A DNA stretch of 64,000 nt from the NCBI GenBank assembly GCA_964036195.1, contig OZ038452.1:3162001-3226000 (forward strand), given 5' to 3'. The notes under the pieces are model-generated. The model searched no databases and was not told where the DNA came from. It saw only the letters and a list, made by a program, of their open reading frames with translations. Position numbers and translations under genes: made by a program. Each line of letters begins with the position of its first letter. Within the stretch, counting starts at the first letter, position 1. Of this stretch, positions 27,801-62,566 are shown piece by piece. Origin of the DNA: Sphaerolaimus hirsutus (taxonomy: Eukaryota > Nematoda > Chromadorea > Monhysterida > Sphaerolaimidae).

Positions 27801-30800
27801 CATTGCAGCGTAGGCAGACGTCATAACTGCGAAAGTACCACTGGGGCCACATTCAATTGGAACGTAAGGCTCAGGTAAGGCGTCTGCCATGGCACCAAGC
27901 GCGTGACATTACTACCGCGCTTTCAACACTTCAACATTACGTGCCAATTGAATCAGCGCCCTGGCGGGGGAGGGCGCGCGAACGCACCACTTTGGAGTGG
28001 GAGAGCAGTTGCAGGATGGCGGGGGTGACTCTCGACCAGAAGTCCATCACGTTGGCGAGCGCGATGTACGCCAGCTGCGCGTCCCCCGTGCGCCCGGCCG
28101 CCTGCGACGCGTCCCTCCCTTGTGCAGCTTATGCTAAAAAAATCCATTTAAAAAAATCGGGGTAGTTAAAAAAATAAATTTTTTCCAACCCTAACCCGAG
28201 GGTAATTTGAGGAAATACTGAAAATTTACGTTCAATATTCTGAACATGGTAGGAGTGGGCAATGTCATTTGAAAGAAACTTGTCACTTGACAGGGCACTT
28301 GACAGGGCACTTGACAGGCCACTTGACAGGGCACTTGACAGGGCACTTGACAGGCCACTTGACAGGGCACTTGACAGGGCACTTGACAGGCCACTTGACA
28401 GGGCACTTGACAGGCCAGTACACGCTGTGCGCGGGTCACCTGTTCGCAGTAGACCGTCCACAGCTGGCAGAGGTGGAACGCGTGGAACAGGGCCGACATG
28501 TGCTCCACGCTCTCCTTGCTCTGCTCCGCGAAGCCGGCCAGCACGAACTGGATCTGGTCGGCGATCTGCGCGCGCGCGTGGCCTTCCACTTGAGCCCTTT
28601 CTTTCAACTACATTGTGTGCGCGTGTAAACTGTGCTGGCCGCCCAGTATTCAACCCTACACGGCTTCACTATGAAATCAATAACGATGGCAAGGTGGTTC
28701 TGGAAGAAAAGTATTTTAATTTTTTAATGTTGTTTTCGAAAATGACTTTTTGATTTTCGAACTTTTTGCAGAGATTTGCAGTTTTATAACGTTTCGATTT
28801 TTATTTCTTTTTTTTCTTACTGAATTTTTTACACCAGATTATTGCATCTTCAAATTTTTCTGGTGAATTTTGAATACATGTTTTTACAGCTTTCCAAGTT
28901 ATTACCGCAGATACATCTGCACATTTTTGTCTAAGGCTATGCATAGATCCATGGCAAATTAACGTAATCATCGTTGGAAAAATGCATTTTCATGCTAAAG
29001 TGTTTGAAAAATCGCGTAAAAAACTTCTACGAGAAAAAGAAAAATTTTACATGTTTTTTCCAGGGGTGAAATAATAATTCGAAAACTCGACAACTTTTGT
29101 TTGCCATCGTTTGCAATCAATGGGCCCCCACACGCTACTTGACATCGACACCAAATGTCACTGGTGCCAATCCCGATTCAAAGCTTGCCGACGAACCGAC
29201 GATCAACGTTCAAACGCAAGCTTTGAATCGGGATCGGCACCAGTTGACCTTTGGTGTCGATGTCAACTAGCGTGTGTGGGGGCAACGAAGCAGCGCGAGC
29301 TAGCGACTGACCTGCTGACTGGCGTCGATGGGCACGGGCAGCGAGTCTGCGGCCACGGCGGCGCCCCCGGACGCGCTGGCGGGGGCGGACGACTGCAGCG
29401 CGCCCAGCAGCACCCACGACAGCACGCGCACGTGCGCCACGCACTCCACGAACTCCGCCGGGCCCTGTCCCAAATGGGGGGTGACTTGGCCGCACTTGGC
29501 AATCTTTGCCATGTCCATTGTATTTACCGTATTGGCTTGAAAAATCCCCCCCCCTGCCTGTAAGATGCGTGAGAGAAAAATACCCCCCCCCGCCGTGAAT
29601 AATTCCCCTTAAAGCATACGATCAATTTGTGATGTCTAATGTGAACAAAAATAGCATGTTATTGTGTTAACATGTATTGACGAAATAATAAATAATTCCT
29701 CCCCTTCAATAATGACCCCCCCTCCTCGAAAAAGTCTAACGAAGTAATAATTCCCCAAGGGGAATTATTCGAGCAAACATGTTATATGGAGGGAAAATAA
29801 ATGTGAATGTTTATATGGACTATAATATATCACCACATCGATATGCGATTTTTTCGACTTTTTGGATTTTTCATCGTAGGTATTGAAATGTGCTATGACA
29901 AAGTGCCTGTAATTCAATAATATAGTCGGCGGACGTCATCCTAAGTACAAACAATCGTATGAACCACTCCACCAGAGTCTCATGACGTACATAAATACCG
30001 TATCCAATCCATTGCAATTTTGTCAGCAGAAAATAAATATAAAATTGATAGGGGTCATGTATGGAAAGGCGCTGAGCCGGTGCGCAAGTAAAACTTGTGC
30101 CCAAGTATGCCCGGTGCCCAAGTATAATTTCCGGTGCCCAAGTACGCCCGGTGCCCAAGTAAAGTGTCCGTACTTGGGCACCGGGCGGCTCTTTACTTGG
30201 GCACCGGGTGGATGTTTACTTGTGCACCGGGCAGGTGCAAGCGCCCTGCCCGGTGCACAAGTATGGGAGCGATAGGGGGGCGATAGCGTATGGGAGTGAT
30301 GGTAGCGGTGCAGATCACATACCCGCCCGGCGCCCAGCATTGCTATTCTCATACAACATACCCCGAAACATGCAGATGTCAAAAGTCAAAGTGTCAAAAG
30401 TCATGAGAAATGCCCTGCTAAACGGCAATTCAAAACGGCAATTCGGTTACCATTTTGCATGGCATTTTCCATGACTTTTGACACTTTTCATGACATTTCA
30501 TGAAACTTCCAATTTCCCAGAAAACAGAAAACAGAAAATTCCCCAATTCCAATTCAAGTAAACCCGGCCCGCCCCAGCCCGACGCAACCATCCCCAAGTA
30601 ATGCACAAGTGTTGCCCAAGTAAACAGCCGCCCGGTGCACAAGTAAAGTGCACAAGTACTGGCACTTTACTTGGGCAATGGGCGTACTTGGGCACCGGTC
30701 TTTATACTTGGGCACCGGGCGTACTTGGGCACCGGTTTTACTTGGGCACCAACCCACGCCCGTATGGAAACATGGCCCACGTCCAGATTATCCGTTCCGT

Positions 30801-33800: not shown

Positions 33801-36800
33801 AATCAGTTCAACATTACACGTGTGCAATCAATCAACGTCAATCGTCAATCGATTGCGCAGTCAATGCACCCCTCAAAGGCACGCACCCCTCAAATCCGAC
33901 TGGAACAGCTGCAGGAAGAGCGAGTTGGGCGACAGCTGGTGCAGCACGACGCGCAGCATCTGCCTGCACACGGACCGGTTGTTGCCCGGCACGAACACGT
34001 TCGACTCGGCCTGCCAGTCGTGCTGCGCCACTTGCGCCAGTCTGCGCGTTCGCAACTTTAGAGGGAACTTTAAAGTTGCGTGTTCAGTGGGTGCGATGGA
34101 AGGGAGCAAATGGTTGTGGGAAATTTGTTGGTTTATTCTAGTATTTTTTACGTTTTTCAATCCGTTTTAAAAACGATAAAACAACGAATAAAATTTAGAA
34201 CGTTTTGAGCGAAGCTGATGCCCCACTTCATCAAGGGCTACCCTGCCTGTAAAGTGTAAAATGAAGTAGGTAACAAATGTCATGTTGTTAAGTGGCAATC
34301 AAACTAAAAAAAGCAAAGATTTTATTACTGCACTTTGCATGACAGTTGACGCTTTGCTTTACATTTCGCATGGCAATTGACACTTTGCATGACATTTTAC
34401 ATGACATGATATGAGACTTTACTTTACACTTTACAGGGCTCGAAACTGTCAGAATGTGCGAGCGAATAAAGTTCAACCAGAAACATTGTTGGGTCATCTC
34501 TATGGCTGGGTTTATTTCTCGCCGTCCGATTCACCACCGCCAGGTGCCAATCCCAGGCCCTGTAAAATGTCAAATGTCATGAAAAGTGTCAAAAGTCATG
34601 TAAAATGCCCGGTAAAATGGCAAACGTACTTTTGCCATTTTACCGGGCATTTGACATGACTTTTGACACTTTGCATGACATTTGACATATTCCAGGGCAT
34701 TTTGCAGTGTCTGGGAGTGCTCCCAGCCCTTTACCCGGGCGCACGTACCTGGCGACGGCCTGGAGCATGCGCGGCAGCAGGTCGGCGGCCATGGCCGGCT
34801 CCCTCTCCACGAACGTCTCCAGGCAGATCACGCACAGGTTGAGCGTCTCCTCGTCCAGGTGCTCCAGGTGCGCGTTGCACCGGCCGCAGCGCAGCGACAA
34901 CGAGTCGCCGCTCGACACGTCCTGCCAAGGGGGGGGGGGTGGAGTGGGCGCGGCTCTGGCCGAGTGCTTTGTGTACAGGCGGCGGTCATGCGGCGAGTGT
35001 CTTGTGAAGTGAGAACTTCAACATATTTAGTTCGAAGAAACTGTTTAGAGCGGAGAAGAAACAAGTTTAGCCGCAGTTCACACGTTTTTTTGGTTGAAAT
35101 TTTTCTGACCACTATTTCCCATGAATATGGAACAATTTTTCGAACTTCACGAGCGTTGTCGGAATCCGACACAAAAAAAAACGTGAAAACGGTGTGATTG
35201 AGATGTGAGAAGTAAAGTGGCAAGTGCCACGAAAACGCTAACACACGTTTTTTTTGTCTTTTTCACTTGCCATTTCATTTCTCACCTATAAATATACTCA
35301 TATTTTACTATTTCAACTTTTTAACCCTCCCTTAAAATCGGTCTCGCCCGTGCACCCAAAATGGACCCGGCCCCGCACGGACGGGCATGGGCGGCAGTCC
35401 GCTGGAGGACACGCTGTGCCAGCGCTCCCTGACGGCGTCGATGCGCTTGCGCCGGGCGTCCCGGTCGGCCATGTTCGGCACGGGCGCGTTGGCGCCGGCG
35501 GACAGCTTGCGGCCAGCCCCCGCGCCGCCGCCCGACGTGGGCGACAGCAGCCCCGCGCTCGCACACGTGTTCGCCATCGGCGCTGCCCGTGGCGGGGCAC
35601 CCGTTATACTCGGCCCACATGATACTCTGCCCTCGCACTGATCTATGACTCACGTTGGAAGCGTGCCAAGGATGATAGAGCATGCGATTTTTTGTATATA
35701 AGATGAACAAATCATTGTTGTGAATAAATTAACGTATAGCTTTAGACCAGAGATGACTTTTTTCAACTTTTTATGAAAATGGCATGCGTAAAAGAATCGT
35801 TGGCACGATTCCAGCGGGAACCACATGTATGTGCAGGGTGTAAAGTGACAGGAGTAATCCTAAGATGACCCATCACTTTGAATAACCCCACCCGCGAGTA
35901 ACGATGGCAAAAAAAATCGAAAACGTTTTTGAATTTTCGATTTTTTTTACTTTTTGAATTTTTATTCCACCACCAGATAAATCACTTAAAAATCTATTTT
36001 TTCAAGAAACTTCAAAAATGAGAGAGAGCAAAATTTGACAAATGTATTCGAATTTTTCATGGTAGTTTTGGCTGAAAATGAGCAGGAAAAGTACAAATTT
36101 CACATGGAGTTAGTCACAGCGGCAAAAATTGTAGAAATTTGTTTTTGCGGTAACAGCTTGTAACTTTCAAAGGCAGCAAAAGATGAAAGTGTATTCAAAA
36201 TTCACCAGACAAATTCGAAAATGCAATACTTTGATGGAAAAAGATCGAAAACTAAAAAAAATTCGAAAATTAGGAAAATTCAAAAATTAAGAAAATTCGA
36301 AAACTATTTTCTGAAAAATTCTAAATTCGAAAATTTCAATTCAATTCAATTAGTTTACTCGGCGCGGACTATTCAAGTCAAATGCAAGTAAAAATAACAA
36401 CATACACCCGTCGGCTACCCTTACTGCGGTCATATTTGGTGAGATTTTAACCTCGTTGCTTACTGCTACAGCATAGAAATGGCATGTGATTGTCAGTGTG
36501 GATGAGATAACAGGTATTGCGATTGCCAGTGAAAAACAAAATCTACAAACTACCTAGCGTCCTAATAAATGAGTTGATACAGGAAAATGGCAAACAACAT
36601 CGCCAGTCACACCGGTGTAAAACACGCTAATACCCCTGACCCGGGTTGAACACTCGCGTATAAAAGCGAGCACAAAAAAAAGACCAAAGTAACAAGCGGC
36701 AAGTGAATTTTAACGCGAATATAAGCGAAATACGCCACACAAATACATCTTTGTCATAATTAATCACCTCCTTAGTCTAAAGATTTCCATTATTTTCGTC

Positions 36801-39800
36801 CATCGAAAAGTCGTTTAGTAAAACAACACTTAATAATATGTATACCGTATTTCCTTGAAATACCCCCCCCCCCTCGTTTGACCCCCCTCTCGAGACCACT
36901 ATGAAACAATCACCCCCCTCGAAATACCCCCCCCCCCAGATTGAGTGTAAAGAGAACGTACATGAAAAATACTGCAGTTTGTGTTCTGCGTAGTGCAGAA
37001 TACACGTTAAAACAGGGTCGTAATCACGTTAGAACAGTGTTTATACCATCTACGTACTACTATTAGTCTACAGGAGTTTATACCTGTCAGTTATTGATGC
37101 ATTTTTCTACCCCAGTGTACATCACAAACGACGATTTTGTACTAGGATTTTAAAAAGTTTCTGGCGAAATAAACCCCCCCCCCCTCTCGGGACCACTATG
37201 AAACAATCACCCCCCGGGGGGTATTTCGAGGAAATACGGTAAACACATTTTTCCAAATGCTTTGCCATCGTCACCACGAGTGTGAGCCACCAAGAGACAA
37301 ACCGGCGAGCGAGACCCTCCTGACGGGCGGGGCGGCCTCCTCGGAGATGGCGTGCAGCCGGTGCTCGGGGTCGTGCTGGGGGCACTCCCACACCCTGTAA
37401 AATGCCCTGTAAAACGCCCTGTAAAACGTCAAATGTCACGCATAGTATCAAACGTCGTGTAAAATGCCCTGCAAAATGGCGAACGTACGTTTGCCATTTT
37501 GCAGGCGGGCATTTTCCACGACTTTTGACACTTTGCATGACATTAGACACTTTACAGGGCACTTTACAGGGTGCGCGATGGACACCTGCTCGGACACGGC
37601 GGCGTACTGGTACGAGTCGCCCGACGGGCTCACCGTGAACACCTGCACGGGCGACATGGCCGCGCCCGGCGCCGACTGCCCGCCGCCCGACGCGCCCTTG
37701 ACACGTTCCACTGGCGCCGCGCCGCCGCGAGCGCCGCACTGCGCGCCGTTGTCGCCGCCGATCTGATTCGGGCAGGTTTGAATGGCTTATCTACTACACT
37801 GTGCCACCAGGGGCCAGTTCCGCAAAATGAGAAGTGAGAAGTGTAATGGCAAAGGCGAAGTGAAACGGCAAGTGAATTGGCAAAAGCGAAGTAAAAAAAA
37901 TAAAAATGAAAAGTAATTTCTCTTCGCTTTCGCCATTTCACTTGCCAATTCACTTGCTATTTCACTTCGCCTTTGCGCTTTTACTTCGCCTTTGCCATTT
38001 CAGTTCTCGCTACTCATTTTGCGGAACTGGCACCAGTTTTTGCGCAGCTGCAGTTTTGGAGAAGCGCCAAAAATGATGTCCGCGGCGCGGCGCGATTGCA
38101 TCCCTACTTGTTATAGAGCTACTAAAACCTTTTCCAAAAGTTTGGTACTTTTTTAGCCCTGGGGTCAGTTCCGCAAGTGGCAAAGTAAAGAGAAAAGCTT
38201 TACTATAAACTTTTTACTTTACCCTGTACTTTTACTCAAGTATACTCGTTACTTTACTCTAAACTTTCCATTTATCATTTCACTTTATTTTACACTTGGT
38301 AGTCTTAACTCTTTACTTTTCTCTTTACTTTGCAAATCTCGGAACTGGCCCCTGGTGTGTGGTAGTGCCAATCTCATGCCAAAAAGGATAAGTTTCAGTG
38401 CCTAGCAAAGCAGCAAATTTTAGAAAAATTCCTGGAAATTCTACAAACGTAACATGCTGGATAAGTGGATTAGTTTCTAACATTCTCAATGAAGGGAACT
38501 GGTAAGAATAAATGTTATAATACCGTATTTATTCTAATAGAAGGGTGGGTGTTCAATAGAGGGACGCATCCAATAGAAGGTACAGTTTTTTTACTTTATT
38601 TGGGCCACGAAAAAAATAGAAGGGCGGTCTCCAAAAGAAGGTCAAAAATTGCTGTAATAGTGCCGAAATGCATTTTTTATGTCAGGGAACGCTTTTATTT
38701 GGTAGTTTTGGTGTTATTTTGATTTTATTTTGCTGTAAGCAACACTTTGGAAATCTTTGGCCTAACATGGCGAGAAATTCACGAAAAAAATCGCGATAAA
38801 CGTAAAAGAGGCGGCTTCTAATCGGAGTGTCTCCAATAGAAAGGTGGGTAAAAAGGTCACGAAAAAATAGGACAGCGCCATGATATTGGAGAAATACGGT
38901 ATTTTAGAGCTACTTGTGTGAGTCATGGTGCAGAAAATTACCGTATTACCTCGAATAAACCCCTTTTGAATTAACCCCCCCCCCCTGTACAATGCAGAAC
39001 ACACGTTAAAACTGATGATTGAGTGACGTTAGGGAGGGTTTATGTGTATATACAGTCATATAAAACACATGTACATCTAAATATGTAATGGTTTGATTTT
39101 TATACGTCAAACCCCCTGGGGTATTTCGAGGTAATACGGTTGGTGAATAACATTCCGCATCAAATAAAGCCAGCTGAGAAACCGGCATAGAAAGTGCTGC
39201 ATCTCTCTTTCTCTCTCTGACAAAATCTGTTCAGATTTTTACGTGTGCTTCGAGTTCAAAAAAAAGTTCTAACAATCAACTACAAATTATCACATAAGTT
39301 CATCTACTTTAAAAATACTCCAACAAATGCACAAGAAGCCTCCACAACCTCGATTCGAAAATATTGTCGCTTATGTTCACTCGTTTATTAATACTTGTTT
39401 CCACACCGATTTCCGACAACGAACACAGCATAATGGGATTTGGAAAGTTGATTTGGAAAAGTAATTAAATTTATCCAGGAGTCGATTCACTAAAAATTTC
39501 AAGTTTCCATCAAAACCCCCCCTTGAAAAGCCTCCAAAACTTGGAAAAATACCAAAGTAGCAAACGACAATACTTTCTCAGAGCGGTTAGCGAACCTTGA
39601 GGTGCTCGGGCCTGACCAGCTGCGGCTCGCCCGGCGTCACCACCACCGTGGGCACGAGCGACGTGTGCGCCACCTGCGTGCGAACCAAACTCCGCCCACT
39701 TCCACACGACACTGCGGGGTGCCTGGCGCCCGGGGTGCTCTTAGCTGTGCGCACAGCTACAGGGCATCGGTGGATTTTAAGTTATACATGCGGACAGCAC

Positions 39801-51800: not shown

Positions 51801-54800
51801 ATTCATTTTATTACAGCTAGGTAGCTAGATAGATAGCTAGGTACACAGCTAAAAATCTTTAACATGTGCCTATTGAAAAATGAAGTGAAAGAACCAATTT
51901 TTTTGCAGCAGCGCCAAAAATCATATGAATAGTGTAGATTTTCTATAAATAATACAACTGCCTAAAAGTTTAATGCCGCGGCCATTTCCACACCTTGTCA
52001 GCTATGCATTGATAAGAACAAGACATGTTTTCATTTATAAGAACAGTCTCTTTTCCTATACTCTGTGTACCGCAAGGTATGCGTCCAAAATTACTTATGC
52101 CTTTGTCGATAAGGATACTTATGTATGCATGTTCATAAAAAGAAAAATATTTTTAAAAGGAAAGGCCGAGTCGCGTACAAGCGACGAATGTTTTTTAAAC
52201 AAACGTTTTTCTTTCCTTTTCGTTTTGAACAATATTTATTTTATAAACGATGATGTCATGATGAGTGTTTCCTTCAGAAAAACGCATAGCACGCGATCCG
52301 CGGAGTATCCTATATCAGCTACAACTCCACCCATCACTTGTCCACCCACTTGACAAACGACAACGCGTGAAATGGCACTTGACACTGACTGTGAGCGAAA
52401 TGCACAAATGCATAGCTACCCAGCCTCTACTGGACTTGGCGGCGCACCGACCTGCGGTGTTGCTGGCGGCGAAGAGCTGCGGCTGCCTGTCGGCGTCGAC
52501 GAGCTTGTCGCACCTGTGCGCCTGCGCCTCGATCGTGTTCAACAGCAACAGCACCACGTTGCGCACCACGTCGTCCAGCGGCTCCTTGTTGAAGTTGTAC
52601 TGCGGTGGGGGTGGGCGATTGATTGGGGTTGGGGGTAAAGGGGTGGGCGATTGATTGGGGTTGGGGGTAGGGGGGTGGGCGATTGATTATGGTTAGGGCT
52701 AGGGTCGGGGGACGGTTGTAATTGGTAGAATACAAGGTTGTTATTATTTGGGTAAACTTTGTTTGCGATCTTTGAGTAATAGTTTATCTTTGAGTACTTC
52801 TGTTAAGTATTTAATTCTTTGATATACATATAAATAATATGTCAAAAATTCAGCAGCACTGCACGGAGCAAATTTTTACCGTTGGCAGTGTGCCAACGAT
52901 AGCTAACATTCAGATCTTTTCTGAAGTAAACTGGTGGCAAATTTAAATGGAAAATTCATAAAAATATGTATAAAAATATGTGTAAATCCCACATGCAAGC
53001 TGTCAGGCTGTCATCTTGTGTCATCCCAAGTATTTACTATATATACTCAAATCGCACCTTATACAGGAGCAGGAGTAGAATCCACAGACACTGGTGCCTG
53101 GCGACCGGAGTCATCGCAGCGAGTGAGTAGTTGAGCGGCTGGTTGTCGCTGGCGAACCGCTGCGGCGACGGCAAGTACTGCAGCAGCTGCAGCGCCACCG
53201 GCATCAGGTAGTTGCCCATCTGCAGGTTCCTGTCCAGCACGGCCGGCAGCCCCATCTGGGCAGTGCCACACCCTGCAAACGACCCTGGCAAGTGTACAAG
53301 GCCCTGCAAAGTGTAACACATCCTGTAAAGTGTCAATGTATTCAAATCTTATTGTATCTATCAAAAGCTTCTTTTTTGTATAAAAATCTTACATGAGATT
53401 ACATGTAACACATTACACATGACACATGACACTTTACAGGGTCTTTTATATGATACATGACATTTTACAGGGCCTTCAAATGGCGAGGACTCTGTGCGCA
53501 TGTAAACTCGGTACCCATGTAGACCCAGTGCCCATCTAACGCTAACCCAGTGCCCTAGTGTTGCAAAAACTGATGTTGCAAAAACTAGTGCTGGGAAGTT
53601 AAAAGTATAAAAAAAAGAAGTGGGAAGTGAAAAGGCAAGTAAAAAGTCAAAAAACTTTTTTAACGTTTCCTTGTCGTTTGCCATTTTATTTGGTCAGTTA
53701 ATTTTTTACTCATTTTGTTAACTCAATATCAGAACACTTCTCGTATTGACGTTTTACTTTACATTTTAGAAGTATAAATACGTTTTAGATACTTTAAATC
53801 TGGAAAAGTTATTTATCTTTACGTTTAGGTACATTTTCCAAAATACCAGTATTTAACAGCACTGCATTGTACTGGTACATGGGTATGGTGTACATGTAGA
53901 CCCCATGCATATAAACCCGGTGCGCATGTACGGTTGAACAAGATGCGCACCGGGTAGAAATACATGGGCACCGAGCCTACGTTTACATGCGCACCGGCAC
54001 AGACCCCTTTTAAATGACACCTGACATTTCACAGAGTCCTTTCCACCTTACAGGGTCTGTTACAGGGTCTGGGACTGGCACCAGGTAGGCGTTGACGGCG
54101 GGCGCGGCGCGCAGCTTGTGCGGCGGGATGGTGAAGCAGCTCTCGCTGTTGCTGTAGCCGAGCAGCACGTTCAAGTGCCGGAACACCGTGTTCTGTTTCT
54201 TGGCCGCAGCCTTCTCGTCCGCTGATACTAGGACCGTGGTCTGCAGATGAAGGGGACACATTGGGTAGAAACGTTTAAATCTTCAAACAGACAAACTTAA
54301 AAAAACATATTTTTCAAAACTGGGGTATTTCGAGGGGGGCTTATTCGAGGGGGGTTATTATTTTGTCAGAATTTTTCGTGAAATTAGTAGTAAACAATAT
54401 GTTCAAACATGCCCAAAACCGGTAATAAATGTGATGAAATAGGACATATTTGTGCATATTAATGTTCATCGCTACTTACACTAGGTATATGTGTAGATGC
54501 GGTGCAAACCTGTAGCAATAAATACATCATGTACTTTGCATGCATGATGTACATCATTTCAGACGGGGTGTATTTCGAGGGGGGTTTTTTTTTTCTCAGC
54601 TAAACCCCTGCTCACCTCTCTTACAACCCTTCAAATATTTTCAAGAGAATCTAAAAAACTCGTGAATGGGGCAACTTTCATGGCCAAGTTGGGTATACAA
54701 TTGTAGGGCAAATCATGCCCTACAAGTGTATACCCAACTTAGCCATGAAAGTTGCCCCATTCACAAGTTTTTAAGTTTCTCTTGAAAAATTTTGAAGGGT

Positions 54801-57800
54801 TGTAAGAGAGGTGAGCAGGGGTTTAGAAAACGCCTTGGGGTATTTCGAGGGGGCGGGGTTAATGCAAGGGGGGGGGGGTATTTCGAGGAAATGCTGTAGT
54901 TTATTCTGTACCGCTCGTTTTACCAGTTCCATGACACCTTACATGACTTTTGACCCCCTTTGCATGACTTTTGACCCACTTTGCATGACATTTGACATTT
55001 TATAGGGCATTTACAGTGTCCGGGAGCGCACCCAGTTCCCCCAGCCAACCCACCGGCATGGAGAGGAAACGCATGAACAAGGACACGCTCAGAAAGAGGG
55101 TGTGCTTCTCGCTGGCGTGCGCGTCGATCGCCTTGGACAAGGACAGGCAGAAATTCGACTCGTGGTCAGTGAACTCGCGCAGCCGGCCCAACATGCCCTC
55201 CGCGTCTGAAATCAAAGCATGTCGTTGTTTTTGGTTTGTTTTTGTTGTCTGTTTCAGGAATTAAGTGGATGTTTTCACTTTGGTGTTTGTATTTAGTGTA
55301 TTATTTAGATATTTAGGCATGCATAGTGAGCAATCCCATTCATAAAATACCTAAGAATGCATGTTATCATTATCAATTTTGAGTTGCAAAACTTTTTAAA
55401 TATAATATGTAAAAAAGTGAAATTAACGATAGTACATATTTAGATGTATAGATATGACCAAACATTAACAAATTTGCATTGTTTACTTCTTCCAAATGAG
55501 CCCAGCAGAAGTGCAGGACTAGAAAGAAGTTATTCAAAAAAGGCCTACTTTATATATAAACTTACATATGAAATGCTGCATCATCTTATACACAAAGATG
55601 TTATGATAGCTGTGATGTGAATTTTCTAATCACAAAGGCTTAATCTTTGGTGCTTACACCACATGCTGTTTTGCTGAGAATTTGATTTTAAAAATAACAA
55701 CATTTTCTGAATACCATCACAAAAGCCTATGCATCATTATATGTCAGTGATAATGGAAAAATAAAGTATGGTTGATGGAATGTGGAAAATTACTTCTGTT
55801 GTAATCTGATTTAGTCACTGAAGCTTTCCAAAATTTCTTGAACCATCTAACAATCACTGTTCATGATTTATTGGCAAAAACTAAACAAAAACAACATTCC
55901 ATCAATCAAAACTAGAAAGAATTGCATAGTGCATACCCATAGTGCTTCCACGGTGCGATACGTTTGGTGGAGACGCCTCAGCGCGGCCGCCTGTGTCGAG
56001 GTGCAATTGTGCAGTTTGTTGCGAGAACGGTGGTGAAAATTTGAAATTTGAAAATATCAAGCTAAAATTACATTCCATTGGAAAATGTATGGTGCCAATT
56101 ATTCTGCTGAGCAAAATGCAGCCAGAATCATTCTGCATGGCAGAGAAATTGTGACAAGTCAGATATTTTTGTCACCAAAAGTGTATCAACATCAACCCAT
56201 ATGAGTTTACAATATGAATATTCTAAAATCAACTGTTCTGTCCCCTGATTAATGACTAACAACTTTTTACACTGATTCAATAACAACTAAAGCCAAAATC
56301 GGCCATTACCATGCAAAAAAATTAATCACAGTTGCAAAAACAGACAGAGATTAAAAGCAACATATGAACATGCACACAAACACAAGATACAAACACATAG
56401 CATAAATACCAGAAAAAGAACCTGGAACCCTTCCATAGTTGGCATCCCTGTGCCTGTAAAACGATGAACCCAGATATGCCGTTCTACCAGCAGCGATGCC
56501 CAGAGGTGTTGGCGTGCTGGCAGGGGTAACTGGCACATTGCCAGGTAGGAGGAGCTTGGAAGTTCCCACATTGCACTGTGCCTCCTCCTTCTCTGTGTAC
56601 ACTGACGTGATGGCAGTGTCGCAGGGGGATGCAGAGTCGCTACTATTGATGCGTCCCAGGGTGAACTTGGACACTCTAGCTGTAGGTTCCTGTGCAATCT
56701 GCAAGGTGTGTGGAAGAATGGACCAAAAGTCTCATGTGATTTAACAGATTATTGTTAAGCACATAGCTAAGTCATTTGGATCTGTCAGTCAAGTATTTCT
56801 ACCCACTACACATCTATACCCACTAGTCATGTAGATCTGTCAGTCAAGTATTTATACCCACTACTTATCTATATTTGCTAGTCATGTAGGTATGCCAGTC
56901 AAGTGTTTCTACCACTACACATCTCTATTCGCTAGACATCAATGCCTCTAAATAAGCGGGGAGTAGAGGACTAACAGAGGGGTAAGCACCACATGGGGAG
57001 CAGCACCAAAGACATCTGGCATGGTGAAAGAATTGTTGTTGTGTCTGCAGTGCTTTTATCATTTGCTAAATTTTTGCATAGTGAGTTAATATTAGTGGTG
57101 GAGGGGAACACAGTAAGAGAGAATGCAGCAGTATCGTTGCCCTATCATGCTATCATGTTCAGACACCACTCAAGAACAAAAACAAAAACAATGGCAGAAT
57201 AGTGATGAACTGCTGCAGTGCCATTGCATTCTCACTTACTTCCGCCACAACAACAATGCCTCACCTTGATGTAGTAGTGAGTACACATGCACTGTGGCCC
57301 ATACTATGTATTTATTTTACTAAGCCCCCCACTAGTCATCTACACCCCCTAATTAGGGGCATAGATGACTAGCAGCGAGAACTACATGACTGATGGGTCT
57401 ACATGACAAGCAGGTTTATATAGCCACAGTTACTGGGTTATTTTTACAAGAAAACTGATAAATTGTTGAGTTTGGGTAATTTTTTTAAATTTCACCTATC
57501 ACTATATGGACCATTCTTATGACTTCTGCTATAATACAACTTTTCATCAACTGACTGGTCACTGAACCTATAATTGAAGAAGCAAGCTGAAACAATGCCC
57601 AATGAAACATTATCAGATTATACCTGTGTGGTAGATGCCGGATCTACAGCCACAGTGAATGCCACAGCACATGCGGTGGATGCGGGCGGGGGTGTTTGCG
57701 GTGCCCGGCGCTCCAACAGTGAACCCCAGCTGTTGGTGCTCATTTTGCGACGCATCAGTCGCCAGGCATTCACCACGCGCACCATTGTGACTACTTTGTT

Positions 57801-62507: not shown

Positions 62508-62566
62508 CTGGGGGCAGTCCCGGACCCTGTAAAATGCTCTGTAAGATGTCAAATGTCACGCAAAGT
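62508..62566. mobile_element. CCCTGTAAA element end forming exon 1 acceptor
   Basis: CTGGGGGCAGTCCCGGACCC followed by TGTAAAATG; interrupted by the TTTCCG element, then resumes as GTAAAGTGTCGC before the gap. On the unc79 strand its end is the exon 1 splice acceptor. Confidence 0.8.

Follow-up and report, generated by a model that had tools for sequence, protein, structure and literature searches.

A palindromic DNA transposon as the probable source of an unc79 intron and of similar introns in the nematode Sphaerolaimus hirsutus

Results

An unc79 intron composed of one palindromic element

A 210-nt intron of the unc79 gene of S. hirsutus is very probably an introner: judged from the sequence, it would have arisen from a non-autonomous, near-perfectly palindromic DNA transposon of ~192 nt with a CWG target. 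The intron occupies positions 37376..37585 of the window (i.e., the 64,000-nt stretch of contig OZ038452.1 that was analyzed), in which the minus strand is the sense strand of unc79. It has phase 0/0 and consists of a 207-nt palindromic element (37379..37585, minus strand) and one 3-nt target copy. The left tip of the element, GTGTCC, lies at 37585 and forms the donor; the right tip, GAGTGCCCC, lies at 37379. One copy of the target, CAG, is on the exon side (37586..37588, minus strand), and the second CAG (37376..37378, minus strand) constitutes the 3' splice site. The junction thus reads ..AAVSEQ (last base 37586) / GTGTCC..CCCCCAG / HDPEHRLHAISEE.. (first base 37375), and removal at these outer ends preserves phase 0, as a first-pass annotation of this DNA had held.

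That annotation had also described the whole intron as a single inverted-repeat element, with CCCTGTAAA and TTTACAGGG placed near its ends. Both sequences can be read close to the two ends of the intron, and its arms, its fold, and its match to a repeat family all bear out the description. The outer arms of the inverted repeat (37405-37469 and 37507-37571) are 65 nt long and 85% complementary, and a central pair (37468-37486/37487-37505) is 95% complementary. Folded as single-stranded DNA, the intron hairpin has a calculated energy of -68.1 kcal/mol, compared to -27.0 kcal/mol (sd 3.2) for shuffled sequences (n = 200; z = -12.7); none of the shuffles (0/200) matched its stability. The element aligns to the family profile described below over positions 1-192 (nhmmer, 199.8 bits).

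The identity of the gene is derived from the concatenated exons of the window, which match human UNC79 (7sx3_D, E = 4.5e-118). A search for UNC79 relatives, scoring the 8000 candidates with the most words in common, returned none at E ≤ 1e-5. VWECPQ, which shares its frame with HDPEHR, was considered as a possible exon; this candidate was rejected, since the sequence represents the right tip of the element and recurs at other copies. The 91-residue exon pair, queried in a form built with the VWECPQ reading, had no relatives in the PDB at E ≤ 10. Because of this, the 37376-37585 junction rests on frame and family membership rather than on alignment.

Other repeats are present in this part of the gene. 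Beside the intron, at 37810-38060, is another palindromic repeat (CCAGTTCCGCAAAATGAG..CTCATTTTGCGGAACTGG), unrelated to the first; pieces of it reappear near 38170 and 38370. C-rich repeats containing CCCCCTCGAAATACCCC, on both strands, are found in introns at 36860-36940, 37170-37240, and 54850-54890.

A family of short, palindromic elements

The intron was used to search the genome (348 Mb in 762 contigs). At least 40 copies with 81-100% identity were found (40 scored of 3724 first-look candidates); these appeared as 80 match rows, since a palindrome matches in either direction and each of the 40 places was found once per strand. We studied 27 of the 40 scored copies, namely those most like the query rather than a random sample. 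The counts below refer to 26 of these; the copy at locus L009 was excluded because its flanks (AAA) differ.

The 26 copies have a mean pairwise identity of 90%. Their consensus is 192 nt long, and its two arms are identical at 93 of 96 positions; the only differences are at tip positions 2, 4, and 7, where the left arm begins GTGCCAA and the right arm GGGGCAG. One tip therefore starts with GTG, the donor, and the other with GGG, and the tips of the family can be summarized by the motif G[GT]G[GC]CA[CG]TCCCAGACCCTG. Copies were oriented by means of these tips, and the presence of GT at the left tip in 26/26 copies is thus not an independent result. Of the 26, the copy at 37379..37585 has diverged the most, with 84% identity to the consensus and 68% between its arms. 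The family is short, bears terminal inverted repeats (TIRs), and is present in many copies, as is typical of miniature inverted-repeat transposable elements (MITEs); at 192 nt, it is too short for a transposase gene.

Three of the loci (L007, L008, and L025) carry more than one family copy each, showing that single genes have been hit repeatedly. Two others, L011 and L020, are near-identical pieces of a leucine-rich-repeat (LRR) gene with a common insertion; this piece was probably duplicated after the element's arrival.

The flanks of the element are mostly CWG

The three bases to the left of the 26 copies were CAG (16), CTG (7), CCG (2), and AAG (1); that is, 23/26 were CWG. To the right, we found CAG (13), CTG (6), CCA (4), CCC (1), AAG (1), and AGA (1), with CWG at 19/26. 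The left and right 3-mers were identical in 15 of the 26 copies, compared to 9.65 after shuffling (p = 0.006). As part of the introner reading, it is therefore very likely that the element inserts at CWG and duplicates three bases.

Other family copies in the window

A profile built from the family was used to search the window, where it also detected older pieces. Another unc79 intron, at 53256..54081 (minus strand, 826 nt), bears family ends at its donor and its acceptor (CTG/GTGCCAGTCCCAG ... CACTGCCCAG/ATG), with other DNA in its middle. At 62508..62566 (minus strand), the right end of a copy, matched by the profile over 62511-62566, forms the acceptor CCCCCAG/AAGGAGCTC. A copy in reverse orientation (34544..34722, plus strand; plus-strand flanks CAG..CAG) lies within a larger unc79 intron, which it shares with one or more old, broken copies (34243..34458, no strand assigned; E = 1.9e-08 and weaker). 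A diverged copy, matching profile positions 15-154, is located at 30361..30500 (no strand assigned; E = 6e-26). Finally, a partial copy in reverse orientation, found by profile match (54916-55030) and by reading, lies just after an exon at 54916..55032 (plus strand).

When up to seven mismatches were allowed, the window contained 13 donor-type and 17 acceptor-type family ends, several of which are chance matches; the reversed window, used as a control, had 0 and 1, respectively. A further unc79 intron, whose donor follows ..LWTVYCEQ, opens with tandemly arrayed 12-mers that resemble CCTGTCAAGTGC (28280-28439). The array matches the family profile weakly and may be an expanded old copy.

Protein homology places the splice sites at the outer ends

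Does removal of the element restore the host genes? The element and one target copy were removed in silico, and the joined frames were searched against Pfam and against solved proteins. On the GT-first strand, 13 loci matched protein families or structures after removal. Twelve of these had Pfam matches at E ≤ 0.01 (L002, L003, L004, L008, L011, L018, L020, L021, L022, L025, L026, and L027), four of which (L002, L003, L004, and L022) were below Pfam's own cut-off; the L003 match lies upstream of the junction in its entirety, and the matches at L011 and L020 start just past it. The thirteenth locus, L012, matched NCX1. No Pfam match was obtained for the submitted GT-first frames of L005, L007, L010, L013, L014, L015, L016, L017, L019, L023, and L028. 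On the opposite strand, matches were found in 0 of the 24 loci tested. L019 looked cyclin-like by eye but, having no Pfam match, was not counted as genic.

Seven junctions, each with the outer GTG as donor and the end of the target copy as acceptor, aligned to solved proteins without a gap at the join: those in L002 (dynein heavy chain 1), L008 (TRPC4), L012 (NCX1), and L021 (SNAPC4; one gap elsewhere in the alignment), two in L025 (RRM2 of A1CF), and that of the unc79 intron at 53256-54081, where NAYL/MGLP is gapless against human UNC79. The alignment of L026 to PDB entries was weak (E = 0.011) and had gaps near the join, and it was not counted among them. These gapless junctions indicate that the outer GTG very probably serves as the donor and that the acceptor lies where the second copy of the target ends. 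The genome, then, holds other introns with the ends seen at 37376-37585; the first-pass annotation had named their absence as grounds for abandoning its proposal.

Some copies end in TG

In 20 of the 26 copies, an AG lies no more than five bases from the right tip. The other six (L013, L015, L019, L024, L025, and L026) have CTG at the right tip; among them, L025 and L026 are genic by homology. The conserved RNA-binding gene at L025 is interrupted by two CTG-ending copies, the second of which is 298 nt long, has 58% identity to the consensus, and also ends in CTG. At four more CTG insertions (L010, L016, L012, and the one in unc79 at 54081), the present end is AG. In L012, a tryptophan codon (TGG) that is kept in NCX1 marks the target as CTG; the right copy has since become CCCAG. 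The inference of a change from CTG to AG assumes that the left flank is the original target; homology supports this at L012 and lends weaker support at the unc79 intron.

In our reading of these sequences, a CTG target would provide a TG acceptor that is functional enough to survive, and selection would later make it AG. CTG insertions would accordingly be spliced at TG, with some mutating to AG afterward, a step of which we are less sure than of the others in the proposed mechanism. The broader scenario is that the transposon writes AG- or TG-ended introns depending on which CWG strand faces the gene, that the host splices both, that TG is subsequently changed to AG, and that intermediates in the birth of introns are therefore visible in one animal genome. 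We give this scenario an even chance of being correct.

The CTG-ending copies might instead not be spliced at TG, the genes being broken or a downstream AG being used. This alternative could well hold, although we incline slightly against it. TG acceptors are rare elsewhere, and by sequence reading an in-frame AG is available further downstream in L019, in L026, and after the second copy in L025. Against it stands L025 itself: it harbors two CTG copies, the second already drifted, yet exact removal of both yields an alignment of 94 residues to A1CF RRM2 with no gap (E = 1.1e-29), and use of the next in-frame AG would lose residues that are aligned in A1CF.

Inner splice sites and older introns

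In the first-pass annotation, the inverted repeat was envisioned as the source of both splice sites, an inner GTAAA serving as donor and an inner TTTACAG as acceptor. The consensus contains the two motifs, and GTAAA lies 18 nt inside, such that its use would keep the frame; however, six extra residues would result, which none of the seven alignments has, and with TTTACAG 19 nt would remain ahead of the exon, breaking the frame whichever donor is used. At the seven gapless junctions, the sites that fit are the outermost GTG and the terminus of the target copy, and the inner sites were rejected there. Inner splice sites are thus quite improbable as the family's general design. The inner donor was retained at one place, the partial copy at 54916..55032, where the frame requires GTAAAT at 55014(-) and the intron would span 54241-55014.

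Least probable of all is that ordinary MITEs entered pre-existing introns with splice sites predating the element: some copies do sit within larger introns (e.g., 34544-34722 in unc79), but both splice sites at the seven aligned junctions coincide with element tips plus target copy, leaving no older intron sequence on either side, and the frame-consistent junctions likewise have none beside the element.

Discussion

The introner reading implies a simple mechanism. If the CAG strand of the target lies in the sense of the gene, the GTG tip would create CAG/GT at the 5' side, and the second CAG would complete ..CCCCCAG/ at the 3' side; the spliceosome would then remove exactly the inserted DNA. 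A single difference, at the second base of the tips (GG vs. GT), would allow the MITE to be spliced in one of its orientations. The mobilizing enzyme would presumably be a PHIS (NuwaI-like) DDE transposase, and the introner is best read as derived from a PHIS/NuwaI-like MITE.

The group that surveyed introners has reportedly described their horizontal transfer in a later paper. As characterized in the portions of that survey considered here, introners are introns that resemble one another across many genes, the resemblance extending to the splice sites, and they have TIRs and target repeats (PMC9860276). The present family resembles them on each count: similar introns occur in unrelated genes, with similarity up to both splice sites, and there are TIRs (93/96 positions) and target repeats (15/26 identical). 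A further shared feature is the mode in which the element provides the 5' site and the target the 3' site, as depicted for Chrysochromulina (Fig. 2C of PMC9860276). The elements in that figure lack TIRs, whereas here a single palindrome makes up almost the entire element; the CWG target and a 3' end that is AG or TG according to the target also differ from what those portions describe. An animal host is uncommon in the survey: of animals and land plants, only two groups have introners, both of them animals, with copepods named (PMC9860276). What differs here is the full palindrome and a CWG target with two outcomes.

NuwaI elements (PHIS, PIF/Harbinger-like) of animals have 5'-CWG-3' target repeats and TIRs of 12-61 bp that usually start with GGG (PMC4482050). 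The family described here shares the CWG target repeats, one TIR end with GGG, and an animal host; in contrast, its left TIR starts with GTG (tips GGGGCA / GTGCCA). Its inverted repeat measures ~96 nt because the element as a whole is a palindrome. Introns are not mentioned in the passages on NuwaI in that source (PMC4482050). Pieces of PIF/Harbinger elements, beside other transposon classes, are present in recently gained fungal introns (PMC8476143). The likeness is a broad one, that of superfamily and of presence in young introns; the fungal cases, in the part of the source that treats them, are recognizable repeats inside introns with no splice-site mechanism given. In the open-licence literature, we found introners paired with Harbinger for fungi only.

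Regarding the TG ends, mammalian U2-type GT-TG introns occur in GNAS and TSPYL2 (PMC4176328); they share the 3' end but, as presented there, are single cases rather than transposon target copies. Fritillaria provides an example of animal introns with non-AG 3' ends, 95% of its introns being stated to escape GT/AG (PMC13326754), whereas the other unc79 introns examined here have ordinary GT donors and AG acceptors.

The origin of introns is an old question, and few animal cases of transposons making introns are given in the relevant part of the introner survey (PMC9860276). In S. hirsutus, the components are easily recognized: three bases near the tips set the palindrome arms apart, the three-base target doubles as exon end and acceptor, and a single orientation can be spliced. 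Should the TG ends prove genuine, the family would also show that 3' splice sites can be non-canonical at first and undergo repair by selection later.
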